Shown: piece after piece, positions 34,004 to 39,065 of the stretch | How positions within the stretch are numbered: position 1 is the first letter of the stretch | How the letters are laid out: the number at the start of each line of letters is the position of its first letter | DNA from: Rubripirellula amarantea | GTDB taxonomy: Bacteria; Planctomycetota; Planctomycetia; Pirellulales; Pirellulaceae | Direction of reading: 5' to 3' | Assembly: GCF_007859865.1 (NCBI RefSeq) | Contig: NZ_SJPI01000001.1 | Coordinates: 2,356,001-2,420,000, forward strand | Length of the DNA: 64,000 nt | Translations under genes and position numbers: made by a program | The notes under the pieces: generated by a model | Seen by the model: the letters and a program-made list of their open reading frames with translations, nothing else | The model's database searches: none | Told to the model about the DNA's origin: nothing

Positions 34004-35329
34004 TTAAGCCGCTCGCAGGATTTCATCGGAATCTTGTTGAGCGGTTTTTTCGTGCAGAAGGTGGTCGACGGTTTGTTTGATTGCACCGCGATGCTTTGCA
34101 ACTACCGCTTTCGCATTCTCGCCAAGCGAGTCGGCGGCCGGGATATCAGACAAGCAACGTCTCACAAATCGCTCGAGTGATTGCTCGTCGACGACGCGGA
34201 CGGCGGCGTCGGCTTCAATCAGGCTATCCGCTATCGTCGCAAAGTTCTTCGTGTTGGGACCGAACGAAACGGGGACGCCGTATCCAGCCGGTTCAAGCAT
34301 GTTCTGGCCGCCACGGCTACCAAAGCTACCGCCGACGGTGGCGATATTGGCGACTCCCCACCAATTTCGAAGTTCGCCTATCGTGTCGACCAAAACGACA
34401 GTATCCACGTCCCAAGAACGACTAAAGAGCGATCCATCGCACGAACGACGATGGACGTTCAAGCCAGACTTTTTTAACAGTGACGCCACGGTGTCAAATC
34501 GTTCGGCGTGGCGTGGAACCAAAATCAGACGAAGTTCAGGATTTAGGACGCGAAGGCGTTGGTAGATCTCAATCGCCATTGACTCTTCGCCGTCTTGCGT
34601 GCTGCCAACGACCCAAACGCGATGCCAAGGATCGACGCCCGACCATTGAACAAGTTCCTGGACTTCGGGTGTGTCCTTTTCCATTGGAGCGTTATCGAAC
34701 TTGATCGAACCGGTAACGGAAAGTCGGCTCGGGGCAACGCCGCACGCTTCAAATCTCGCTAACGCAGCTTCGTCCTGGCAACCGACCCAGTGTAAACGTT
34801 CAAAGGATGGTCGCGTGAGAAACCCAAATTGTTGGTAGCGTTCCGAACTCCGGCTGCTCAATCGCCCATTGATCACCTTCACTCGATGGCCAGCTTTCGA
34901 GGCCAGCCGAATCAAGTTGGGCCAAAGTTCCAGTTCGGTCAGGATCACCTGCTTGGGCTTCAAGTGGCGAAGCGTCCGCGAAACGGCCCAGGTGAAATCC
35001 AATGGGCAAAAGAACACTCGCTCTGCACCGAACCGTTGTACAGCCAGGTCATATCCGGTGTCGGTGGAACTGCTGATCACGATCGATGCATCGGGGACGA
35101 GCGATTCGATCTGCTTCACCACCGAAGGCAGCAAATTGACTTCGCCAACGCTGACCGCATGGATCCATAGGCACTCTTTGCCGGCTCGAAGCTGCTTCGC
35201 CCGCGTTTTGGACAAGCCCAGCAGCTTTTCGCCGAGTCCGCGGCGGTAACGGCCGTGCCGAACCATGCGATATGCGACGATCGGCGAGACGGCGGCCAAT
35301 AGGGCCGCGTATAGCAGGTTAAATAACAT
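34004..35329 (-). CDS. waaA: 3-deoxy-D-manno-octulosonic acid transferase
   Basis: 441 residues from the ATG at 35329, supported by GGAAGG a few bases upstream and by the N-terminal membrane anchor LLYAALLAAVSPIVAY; the longer frame to 35581 would overlap secA. WaaA blocks are GLGEKLLG, WIHAVSVGEV with the catalytic Glu, SSSTDTGYD, LTELELWPN, and GSIKFDN; the C-terminal GT-B half has VPRHAERF and GGSFGSRGGQNMLEP. It adds Kdo to lipid A precursors at the inner membrane, evidence for LPS in this organism. It begins 31 bases after the secA stop. Confidence 0.92.
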   Translation of the reverse strand: MLFNLLYAALLAAVSPIVAYRMVRHGRYRRGLGEKLLGLSKTRAKQLRAGKECLWIHAVSVGEVNLLPSVVKQIESLVPDASIVISSSTDTGYDLAVQRFGAERVFFCPLDFTWAVSRTLRHLKPKQVILTELELWPNLIRLASKAGHRVKVINGRLSSRSSERYQQFGFLTRPSFERLHWVGCQDEAALARFEACGVAPSRLSVTGSIKFDNAPMEKDTPEVQELVQWSGVDPWHRVWVVGSTQDGEESMAIEIYQRLRVLNPELRLILVPRHAERFDTVASLLKKSGLNVHRRSCDGSLFSRSWDVDTVVLVDTIGELRNWWGVANIATVGGSFGSRGGQNMLEPAGYGVPVSFGPNTKNFATIADSLIEADAAVRVVDEQSLERFVRRCLSDIPAADSLGENAKAVVAKHRGAIKQTVDHLLHEKTAQQDSDEILRAA

Positions 35330-35360
35330 CGGAATCCTTCCCGAGTTTTCAGTGCAGGAA

Positions 35361-38300
35361 CTAGACGACGTTCTTACGCATGTGACACTGTTTAAACTTC
35401 TTGCCACTTCCACATGGGCAAGGATCATTTCGTCCAACGCGAGGGGCCTCGTGTCGAACGGGCTCACGACGACTTTCTTCGTCCGAGCTGCTGTTGGCTG
35501 AACTGCGGGCTGCGGCCTGGGCCGGTGACTCTTCGGCTTCGGCCATCCCGTGAGCTTCATCGTGACGTTCTTCGCCGCCAATGTAAGTGCTGCGAATGAA
35601 CTCTTCGTTGAGTGATTCCATTCGGAAAATCAGATCGGTTACTCGGTCACCAATGTTTTCCCACATGGAGTCGAACAATCGCATGCCTTCGCGTTTGTAT
35701 TCGACCTTGGGGTCCATCTGGGCATAGCCCTTTAACCCAACGCTACTTCGCAGGTGGTCCATGGTGAGCAAGTGATTCTTCCAAGCGTCATCAACGATAT
35801 TGAGCAACACTTGACGTTCCATACGACGCATTTCAGGGTGGAAACGATCGTCCACGGCACCATCGAGTGCTAATGCGAGTTGGTCACGGTTCATCCGCGA
35901 GATGTCTTCTTTGGCACCGCGGAAGTTCAATTCGTTGTGAAGCCAATCGGCAAAACTATCAAGTGAGCCATTGCCACCACTTGCGACTGCCGCAGTGGTT
36001 TCAGAATCGGCGTCGCCAAACAGTTCGCGAAGCTTCAATTCAGCCGCAGCTTGTTTTTCCTCTGCTGCGTCGCCAGTGTCGCGGCTGTATTCGAGAATTT
36101 GGCTCTTCAATTCGTCACGGTTCAAGCGGACGTCTTCAACATCAAGCACCACACCAAAGCGTCGGTTGATCCATTGAACGAGCCCTTCGCGATCGAGTGA
36201 AACTTGGGCACCTTGTTTGTCGGTGAACTTGGAAAGTCCAGTGAGCACCGGGTATTCGGCTTCCTTCAGCGTGTAAGCGTCTTCGGCGCGAGCGAACAAC
36301 GAGTCGACAACCTGATCAAGGTCTTCGACGTCGCGGAATTCGTCTGGAGTAGTCTCGATACCGAACCGATGCTTCATCCACGCTGAAAGTGTGCGAAGGC
36401 CGAAGTCAGCGTCGAGAGTAGCTTCGCCTTCGGATAAATCCACTGTTGCAATTCGTCGATGGGCGCTCTTCACGAGCTCTTCCATCATCTCATTGCGTTC
36501 CATGTTCTGAAGCTGGTGTTCCTGGTAATTCGTTCCCAACCGTGTGTTGGCCCAGTTAACAAGTGCCTTCCAGTTCCATTCGTCTTCCATGCCGCTTGGC
36601 AGGTTCTCTTCGACGATTTCAGCGACCGTTACTTCGGCTGCGCGTTCGGCTTGATCCTTGGCGTAAGAATCCGCCATCTCGAAGTCCATGTTGACGAAGT
36701 CACGTGGTTCAAGTTGGCAATCCAAGTGCGAACCAGCAAACCCTGCGAATGATTCAACGCCATAGTTGGGTTCCAGGAATGTTTGCACATACTTTTCGAT
36801 TTGGCCTCGGATGAGTTCCAGGACCATCGCGCGGCTGCTGTGTCCGTCCAAGAGAGCTTGGCGATATCGGTAAACGCGTTTGCGTTGTTCGTCCATGACT
36901 TCGTCATAGTCGAGCAAGCTTTTGCGAATTTCGTAGTTGCGTTCTTCGACCTTCTTTTGTGCCGCAGCGATACGACGGCTAACCATGTTCGACTCGATTG
37001 CGTCGCCTTCTTTCATGCCCAGACGTTCCATCATGCTCTTGACGAAATCGCCAGCGAAAATTCGCATCAGATCGTCTTCAAGCGACAAAAAGAATCGGCT
37101 CGAACCCGGGTCACCCTGTCGTCCACAACGACCGCGAAGTTGAAGGTCAATACGGCGGGATTCGTGGCGTTCGGTACCTAGGACATACAATCCGCCGATA
37201 TCGCGAACGATGTGCCCCTCTTCGCTCATCTTTTCTCGTTCGTCGATTTCCTCGACCAACTTGTTCCAAACCTCGTCTGGGACTTCCAAACGCGTCGGGT
37301 ACTCGTGTTGCAGTTGAGCCCACGCCATCGTTTCGGGATTACCACCCAAGATAATGTCGGTACCGCGACCTGCCATGTTCGTTGCGATTGTGACCGCGCC
37401 AAGTCGACCGGCCTGAGCAACAATGTCGGCTTCGCGACCGTGCTGTTTCGCGTTGAGGACGTCATGCTTGATACCACGACGTTCGAGCAATTCGGAAAGG
37501 CGTTCACTCTTCTCGATGCTGACCGTACCGATCAGCACGGGACGATCCTTTCGCTCGATCGAATCAACCTTTTCCAAGGCGACTGTTTCAGCAGTTTTTT
37601 CGCCCTTGGGGATGATCGTGACGGTCGATTCGTCTTCTTTTTGAATCAGACCCCAAACTTCGTCGCCGTCCTTTAGGTTCAACACATCCCATTTGTGAGT
37701 GCGTTCGACTTCGTTAGCCAGGGCGTTGAACTTGTCTTTTTCAGTCAGGTAGATTTGGTCGGGGAATTCAATCCGCTTCATCACTCGGTGAGTCGGAATG
37801 GCAACCACGTCGAGTCCGTAAATCTTCATGAACTCGGTGGCTTCGGTCATGGCCGTACCGGTCATCCCCGACAATTTCTTATACATCTTGAAGATGTTCT
37901 GCAGAGACGCAGTCGCAAAGGTTTGCGTTTCCGCCTTGATTTTAACGCCCTCTTTGGCCTCCACAGCTTGGTGCAGTCCATCGCTCCATTGACGACCTTC
38001 CATCAACCGTCCGGTGAACTCGTCGACGATAATGATCTCGCCTTCCTTGACAACGTAGTTCACGTCAACTCGATACAAGTAGCGAGCCTTCAACGCGTTG
38101 TCGATCAAGTGCGGCCATTCCATATTGCCGGCTGTGTAGAAACTCTCAACGCCAGCAAGACGTTCCGCTTCGCGTACGCCTTCGTCCGTCAGGGTGACGT
38201 TGTGTTGTTTCTCATCGACCGTGAAGTGAATTTCTTTGGTCAACTGCTTGGCTACGCGATCCGCTTCTTGATAACGACCCAAATCAAGGTCGGCCGGGCC

Positions 38301-39065
38301 ACTGATGATCAGAGGCGTACGAGCTTCGTCGATCAGAATGTTATCAACTTCGTCAATGATGGCGTAATTAAGCGGACCCTGGCACTGCTGCATTTCAGCC
38401 GGGAACCGATCATCACCCTTCGCGGCGGGACGCATGTTATCGCGAAGGTAATCAAAGCCAAATTCGTTGTTGGTTCCATACGTGATGTCGCACGCGTAGG
38501 CGGCTTGCTTTTCCGCTGTCGACATACCGGACTGGATCGCATTCACGGTCAAACCGAGGTTCATGTAAAGCGGAGCCATCCATTCCATGTCGCGACGGGC
38601 CAGGTAATCATTCACAGTAATAACGTGAACGCCCTTACCTTCGATCGCATTTAAGTATGCCGGCAGCGTCGCGACGAGTGTTTTGCCTTCTCCGGTCACC
38701 ATTTCGGCGATGTTGCCATTGTGCAGAACCATGCCCCCGACCAATTGGACATCGTAGTGACGCATGCCCATGAACCGCTTGCCACCTTCGCGGCAAATCG
38801 CGAAGGCATCTTCTAAGATGTCATCGAGCGTTTCACCGTCGCGGATTCGTTTGCGTAGAATCTCGGTTTGTTGTTTCAGTTCCTCGTCGCTCATCGCCGC
38901 GTACTTGGGCTCAAGCGAAGTGATCAACTCTGCTCGGGCTTGCAGTTTGGCAACGTGGCGTGCGTTCGCGGATCCGAAGACGGCGGTGACGGCACGTTCA
39001 AATGAACCAAAGGCACCGCCGAAAACGACGCCCAAGGTATCCCAGATTTGTTCAAGCACTGGCAT
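35361..39065 (-). CDS. secA: Preprotein translocase subunit SecA, extra-long form
   Basis: 1234 residues, about 330 more than E. coli SecA. Motor motifs are present: Walker A TGEGKT (124-129), DEVD (238-241), TNMAGRGTD (562-570), and [13 protein letters not shown] (644-656). The SEC-C zinc site is complete (Cys1216, Cys1218, Cys1227, His1228). Two additions stand out: an insert at about 456-506 between conserved motor segments, and four copies of a ~40-residue module at about 831-871, 890-931, 958-1000 and 1035-1075, where E. coli has one. The helical scaffold resumes at 1080 ([18 protein letters not shown]). SecA drives preproteins through SecYEG. waaA follows on the same strand. Confidence 0.97.
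35841..36575 (-). repeat. Fourfold divergent protein repeat inside secA
   Basis: Four related segments share the pattern hydrophobic-x-x-W-hydrophobic-x-x-R/E-hydrophobic-G/N, then an acidic stretch and an amphipathic helix: [40 protein letters not shown]. The copies have diverged at DNA level but are clear in protein. The last copy lies where E. coli SecA has its single equivalent. Confidence 0.8.

Follow-up and report, generated by a model that had tools for sequence, protein, structure and literature searches.

To our knowledge, SecA is close to universal in bacteria and is usually regarded as one conserved machine. Among the planctomycetes, the anammox bacterium Kuenenia possesses a true internal compartment. 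A close precedent comes from a 2015 survey of 99 genomes, which reported "rearrangements" of the SecA_SW domain in every planctomycete that it covered, Kuenenia excepted, and in none of the other bacteria (PMC4452313). The accessible text of that paper describes an irregularity of domain hits, and contains no description of repeats, copy number, an ancestral copy or a ten-unit wing. The rearrangement affects the same domain in the same phylum as the five-copy wing that we describe here, and very probably is the same feature. An earlier note on the locus studied here had suggested that its enlarged SecA might be relevant to planctomycete internal membranes. That link is not supported by the accessible parts of the 2015 paper, in which the rearrangement is absent from Verrucomicrobia and Lentisphaerae with internal membranes and the authors argue against the association although phi was 0.76 (PMC4452313). 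A likewise lineage-specific enlargement of SecA has been reported for thermophiles; the inserts, according to the accessible text, are single ones of 50 aa (in NBD1) and 76 aa (PMC7023208), whereas the enlargement considered here consists of repeats in the wing. In searches of open-access papers we recognised no account of SecA wing repeats. The SecA described here is a housekeeping SecA with an amplified wing; the description of the repeats appears to be new, and the rearrangement has been on record since 2015.

The protein is encoded in a 64,000-nucleotide stretch of the genome of Rubripirellula amarantea (the window) by one uninterrupted open reading frame of 1234 aa on the minus strand (39065..35361), which was the sole full-length match in a search of this genome; all features located below are on the same strand. 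It shares with the housekeeping SecA1 of E. coli the motor, preprotein-binding domain, scaffold, finger and SEC-C motif, and differs in having five wing modules rather than one. The full SecA domain set is present, with SecA_DEAD (residues 28–412, 37830..38984; Pfam PF07517, 1.1e-119), the preprotein cross-linking domain inside it (residues 264–369; PF01043, 5.7e-40) and the P-loop_SecA or NBD2 domain (residues 489–687, 37005..37601; PF21090, 1.6e-83) all above the Pfam cut-offs. SecA_SW, comprising wing and scaffold, was matched in three stretches (PF07516, 1.6e-51), and the two-helix finger region (residues ~1080–1135, 35661..35828) is ordinary, based on its alignment with the E. coli finger region and the helices of an AlphaFold2 model. 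The C-terminus carries a SEC-C metal-binding motif (residues 1212–1230, 35376..35432; PF02810, 1.5e-10).

The protein scored 1067 bits with the NCBIfam SecA equivalog PRK12904 (NF009538, cut-off 814) and 998 bits with TIGR00963 (cut-off 800), and fell below the cut-offs of NF009536 (PRK12901) and of the subfamily model NF006630. The compact one-module wing is absent, there being five modules; a single module is usual and is not demanded by the equivalog models. Identity as SecA2 or as a secondary SecA_DEAD protein was rejected because the four listed SecA2 models scored below cut-off and the wing-scaffold is present. These matches indicate that the protein is the housekeeping SecA, for which an essential role in ATP-driven preprotein translocation is predicted. 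The nearest named relative found was the SecA of Rubripirellula obstinata (84% identity).

Outside the wing there is an insert of about 47 aa in NBD2 (residues 458–503, 37557..37694), which is absent from E. coli SecA, as seen from an alignment gap, and is beta-rich in the AlphaFold2 model, where it forms strands. The distance between the anchors that flank it is 112, against 65; among class loci other than L033–L061 of the order, the value of 112 was found in L001, L091, L093, L094 and L099 and that of 65 in the others with a value. Class identity of the insert is low (0.25). Secondary SecA_DEAD proteins are on record for PVC bacteria (PMC4452313, in its accessible parts), and the genome has three such ORFs (G000:C1:3638280, C2:179092 and C3:6658; open frames of 762, 655 and 670 aa), which align over the motor part only. 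Module hits were absent from the two secondary ORFs that were scanned, L002 and L003. Directly after secA there is a minus-strand ORF (34004-35581), whose product, we presume, resembles 3-deoxy-manno-octulosonic-acid transferase. The two genes may share an operon, since an internal ATG of this ORF at ~35329 (hand count) sits ~30 bases past the secA stop.

Within the wing, the earlier note had recognised four copies of a module in positions 35841-36575, which correspond to residues 831–1075. All four are present; a count of four only was ruled out by a fifth copy upstream, and the class alignment together with profile comparison reveals five tandem copies of a ~45-residue module in residues 768–1078. 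Copy 1 spans residues 768–812 (36630..36764), copy 2 residues 829–872 (36450..36581), copy 3 residues 887–933 (36267..36407), copy 4 residues 957–1003 (36057..36197) and copy 5 residues 1033–1078 (35832..35969). In the class alignment each has a helix-like hydrophobic-x-x-W pattern with hydrophobic spacing, a short polar stretch and a second helix. HHalign profile–profile comparisons showed the self-similarity that the note had called for in all ten pairs of copies, with scores of 31.7–50.8 and probabilities of 94.3–97.8%, against a maximum of 16.7 with windows of the remaining SecA (155 comparisons) and of 18.2 with column-shuffled copies (600 comparisons); the class alignment used for scoring had also served for setting the copy borders visually, but the real pairs stand far above the controls. 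We are highly confident that the array is an amplified wing unit.

The span between the conserved anchors is 343 aa in the window SecA and 95 in that of E. coli. Of the 333 residues that the protein has beyond E. coli SecA, 248 are therefore contributed by the array. The expectation that duplication explains most of the ~330 extra residues was correct in this respect, with four extra copies and not the three proposed. Copies 2–5 of the window are only 16–18% identical to copy 1 and the array region contains no DNA direct repeats of at least 18 bases, which suggests that the wing duplications are old.

With a limit of E up to 10, Pfam listed ten families for the protein, none of them a solenoid repeat family (HEAT, TPR etc.); the weak hits touching the array were to DUF4771, Phage_lambda_P and HTH_33. 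When compared with PDB sequences, the module profile found two designed repeat proteins (E 4.8e-4 and 2.8e-3), with all others above 0.3, and recovered no SecA, so the link to the E. coli protein rests on the profile–profile scores given below. Searches for modules outside SecA in 13 near genomes gave stray hits only (E 0.03–1). Among the matches listed in the phylum search, a few short ones with E below 0.01 fell in ORFs other than secA, the strongest of these being G012:C31:5498-5581 (E 1.0e-4, 28 positions, in a 172-aa frame).

An AlphaFold2 model of residues 24–1165, run with 57 aligned sequences, had a mean pLDDT of 83.1 and a pTM of 0.73. Its overall fold is that of SecA: Foldseek ranks 1–36 were all SecA or SecA2 chains, and the match to 6itc, a substrate-engaged SecA-SecY complex, had a target-normalised TM of 0.85. 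In each copy the model has a helix of 11–14 residues, a short helix of 3–5 residues and a longer helix of 16–34 residues (copy 1: 768–781, 787–790, 795–821; copy 2: 832–842, 849–853, 857–874; copy 3: 888–901, 907–909, 916–946; copy 4: 959–970, 976–978, 983–1016; copy 5: 1034–1046, 1052–1056, 1060–1075). The five copies thus share the same predicted order of secondary structure. Two further elements are predicted between copies: a short helix at residues 878–884, which separates copies 2 and 3, and a pair of strands at residues 948–957 (36195..36224), which separates copies 3 and 4.

The profile comparisons support the earlier claim that a similar segment is found once in E. coli SecA before the scaffold. 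In sliding profile windows this segment matched best with copy 3 (24.9; shuffled-window maximum 12.9, n = 20), and a plain module HMM missed it at E below 0.05. The module is the unit of the helical wing domain, single in E. coli SecA, that precedes the two-helix finger. Copy 3 is also the closest to the single module of other SecAs. With copy-specific HMMs it was best for 12 of the 13 sequences with one detectable wing unit (L009, L010, L011, L016, L020, L165, L204, L023, L170, which is E. coli, and L141, L142 and L218 of family f47), the exception being L153, for which copy 2 was best. Sliding profile windows also favoured copy 3 for families f43 (61.8), f15 (49.4) and f47 (53.5) and, weakly, for Chloroflexota (22.1; shuffled maximum 15.9). 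Since single units resemble copy 3, the array appears to have grown on both sides: most likely it started from copy 3 and gained two copies before it and two after. The picture is not uniform, as judged from these windows: the single unit of f9 is nearest to copy 5 (23.5) and f11 had no window above the print limit of 16. The last copy was considered as the ancestral one and rejected, because single units mostly match copy 3, that of f9 matching copy 5.

A SecA match was obtained in all 148 class genomes searched. Wing anchors were located by HMM in one ORF at 213 of 251 loci, the other 38 being cut or broken loci, paralogues, SEC-C-only hits and one filler. The wing is 333–367 aa in all 56 class genomes measured, which represent 13 families (loci L001, L004–L007, L033–L061, L110–L129, L161 and L162), and each of these genomes, all with a complete SecA, gave five module HMM hits. 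The standard deviation of wing length was 5.4 aa over 86 loci, which were preselected at 333–367 aa and thus exclude four-copy wings. Four copies were found in Planctomicrobium (L092) and in the partial L101; L008, L077 and L088 also show four, at loci that are cut. When the class was searched with the module profile at E up to 0.01, 135 of 148 genomes had at least four hits, 12 had two or three and one had none. Low counts are at least partly a matter of sensitivity, because four such genomes (G152, G121, G171 and G250) had five copies on closer scan (L055, L110, L127 and L126, respectively). A few class genomes had six module hits, one of which, in G048 and G069, sits in another short ORF.

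Outside the class, 99 genomes were measured, from 113 of the phylum draw and three that were added. The wing is of one-copy length (up to 120 aa) in 78 of them (47 families), 121–200 aa in eight (f24, f47), 236 aa in one (f8), 326–334 aa in six (f4, f48, f57, f64) and 750–809 aa in six (f12, f65, f84). The assignment of one copy here is largely by length: of 36 phylum loci of one-copy length, with repeat entries of one genome counted once, the module HMM hit 21 at E below 0.05 and missed the remaining 15. In family f24 two units are supported, with scores of 31.0 and 26.9 against a shuffled maximum of 14.2. For f8, represented by one sequence, candidate units scored 19.5, 28.0 and 16.5, against a shuffled maximum of 12.5 (n = 20), and we tentatively assign it three. 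Wing length alone was rejected as a copy count since it fails for f47 (154–181 aa), whose extra residues have no second match; in L141, L142 and L218 these residues follow the single wing unit and give no module match.

The wings of 326–334 aa form a second five-copy group, whose six SecAs align with those of the class across five segments and linkers. Its profile windows match copies 1, 2, 3 and 4 in order (49.8, 61.1, 73.1 and 55.1), and the fifth segment matches at 28.0, best with copy 3. Per sequence, copies 1–4 were likewise found in order, the exception being the second unit of L144, for which copy 3 was one bit above copy 2; a fifth hit was obtained only in L143 (best with copy 4) and L144 (best with copy 5). 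This correspondence points to one origin, shared between the class and the second group, for at least four of the five copies. L144, L146, L147 and L148 are without the C-terminal SEC-C motif, which L143 keeps, and L145 has other sequence there.

The wings of 750–809 aa belong to SecAs of ~1650 aa (L138:12-4958, L139, L177, L201, L202 and L205). Ten units were marked by eye in this long wing, at a spacing of 61–81 residues, and profiles were built from five of the sequences, L202 being omitted as it has no anchor. Nine of the ten units match a class copy above the control maximum of 15.3 (360 comparisons), unit 2 barely so (15.6), and 25 of 45 unit-to-unit pairs exceed the same maximum. In an AlphaFold2 model of one ten-unit SecA (six sequences, pLDDT 79.8, pTM 0.62) the helix pattern repeats along the wing, ten repeats being counted by eye; Foldseek placed SecA chains first for this model, with weak matches (best E 6.0e-4, query TM 0.13). 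Two observations argue for a separate origin of the ten-unit wing: f50, of the same class as the ten-unit families, has a wing of one-copy length, and no one-to-one match of the ten units with copies 1–5 was seen.

A FastTree phylogeny of 136 SecA parts before the wing needed four changes between one and many copies, with f47 set to one, and the free tree placed the six second-group SecAs among one-copy families. AU tests allowed each of three groupings to form one clade: the two five-copy groups together (p 0.52), the ten-, five- and two-unit SecAs (p 0.478), and f8 with the five- and two-unit SecAs (p 0.245). From these trees it is likely, but not proven, that wing amplification was repeated. 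The earlier note had proposed to date the duplications by alignment across Planctomycetes: they appear to be old and are present in nearly all class members examined, and the AU tests leave both one and several origins standing. Its broader claim, of serial duplication inside a housekeeping SecA in a lineage-specific pattern, is borne out by the profile pairs, module counts, wing lengths and tree.

Compared with R. obstinata, the copies have a dN of 0.166 at a dS of 1.87, which is near saturation, and the core has a dN of 0.060; this comparison, with its dS near saturation, indicates that the copies are under purifying selection. In five species pairs, several of which have a dS that is undefined or close to saturation, copy dN was 2.7–3.9 times that of the motor core. 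Across 16 class representatives, identity is 0.28–0.38 for the copies, 0.29 for the linkers and 0.65–0.78 for motor, scaffold and finger; among the copies, conservation is highest in copies 1 and 2 (0.36 and 0.38).

On balance we favour as the best explanation, and consider probable, that a duplicated wing unit has given rise to a long helical arm next to the preprotein clamp. The wing unit of a housekeeping SecA has been tandemly duplicated to five, most likely with two copies before and two after copy 3, and the outcome is a ~310-residue, almost all-helical repeat arm that replaces the compact wing, while the motor, preprotein-binding domain, scaffold, finger and C-terminal motif remain ordinary. 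The arm is expected to project from where the wing sits, close to both the clamp and the surface of the membrane. According to the accessible parts of two studies, the preprotein-binding domain of E. coli SecA shifts toward the wing in the ATP-bound state (PMC6123708), and in the SecA-SecY complex two residues of the wing contact the lipid surface (PMC6599042). Either effect proposed in the earlier note, a change in preprotein clamping or an additional partner site, is therefore possible. The arm may work passively, by offering a larger surface to the preprotein-binding domain, the incoming chain or the membrane, and we favour this over a catalytic domain or one that binds with high specificity; we regard this functional part as quite possible, at somewhat below even confidence. 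A unit number that is fixed while the sequence is loosely conserved would suit a spacer, a shield or a surface of low specificity, and would be less expected of a precise binding site.

The weak conservation of the copies leaves room for no new function at all. The wing might tolerate unit duplication such that extra copies were fixed and became structurally entrenched as a neutral ratchet, and the fast, linker-like evolution of the copies would fit this, as would the one-copy length with which most measured relatives outside the class manage and the existence of several array sizes, including the four copies of Planctomicrobium and the partial L101. We consider this rather unlikely, as five copies and the narrow range of wing lengths are constant throughout the 56 class genomes and 13 families measured, and the copies are under apparent purifying selection.

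That the added copies instead bind a defined factor, such as a ribosome, a chaperone or a planctomycete membrane protein, we regard as unlikely. Copies 1 and 2 are, as noted, the best conserved, and SecB, the usual export chaperone, had no match in any of 59 class genomes, both of which count in favour of a partner platform. However, SecB was also without a match in 115 of 118 genomes of the phylum draw, most measured ones of which have one-copy wings, and conservation is low for a specific interface: the copies evolve fast and are hardly better conserved than the linkers, a pattern that makes a precisely delimited site for a partner less likely. SecY is of ordinary length, no matching enlargement being seen when open frames were compared by eye. 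Loss of SecB as the specific cause of the array was rejected, since its absence is not restricted to many-copy lineages. One of the three phylum genomes with a SecB match, G010, has a ten-unit wing.

It is very improbable that the copies are unrelated helical hairpins alike by composition; their low identity to copy 1 could be read in this way, but all ten profile pairs exceeded every control, whose scores never reached those of real pairs, and the second family group has five in-register segments, with wing lengths that are stepwise across the phylum. An assembly or frame artefact, in favour of which nothing was found for the window, is negligible given the single 1234-aa open frame, the SecA match in every class genome searched and the five copies in the 56 closely read class genomes and in named isolates.

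The preferred reading of a long helical arm gives anatomical meaning to the planctomycete SecA "rearrangement" known since 2015. With some hesitation, we extend it to the phylum: the SecA wing in Planctomycetota may be an evolvable repeat arm of 1, 2, perhaps 3, 4, 5 and ~10 units, amplified more than once, of which the long forms would alter the handling of the preprotein or the membrane surface at the clamp entry. The wings of one-copy length, of five units and of about ten units are a natural series for testing the role of the wing.
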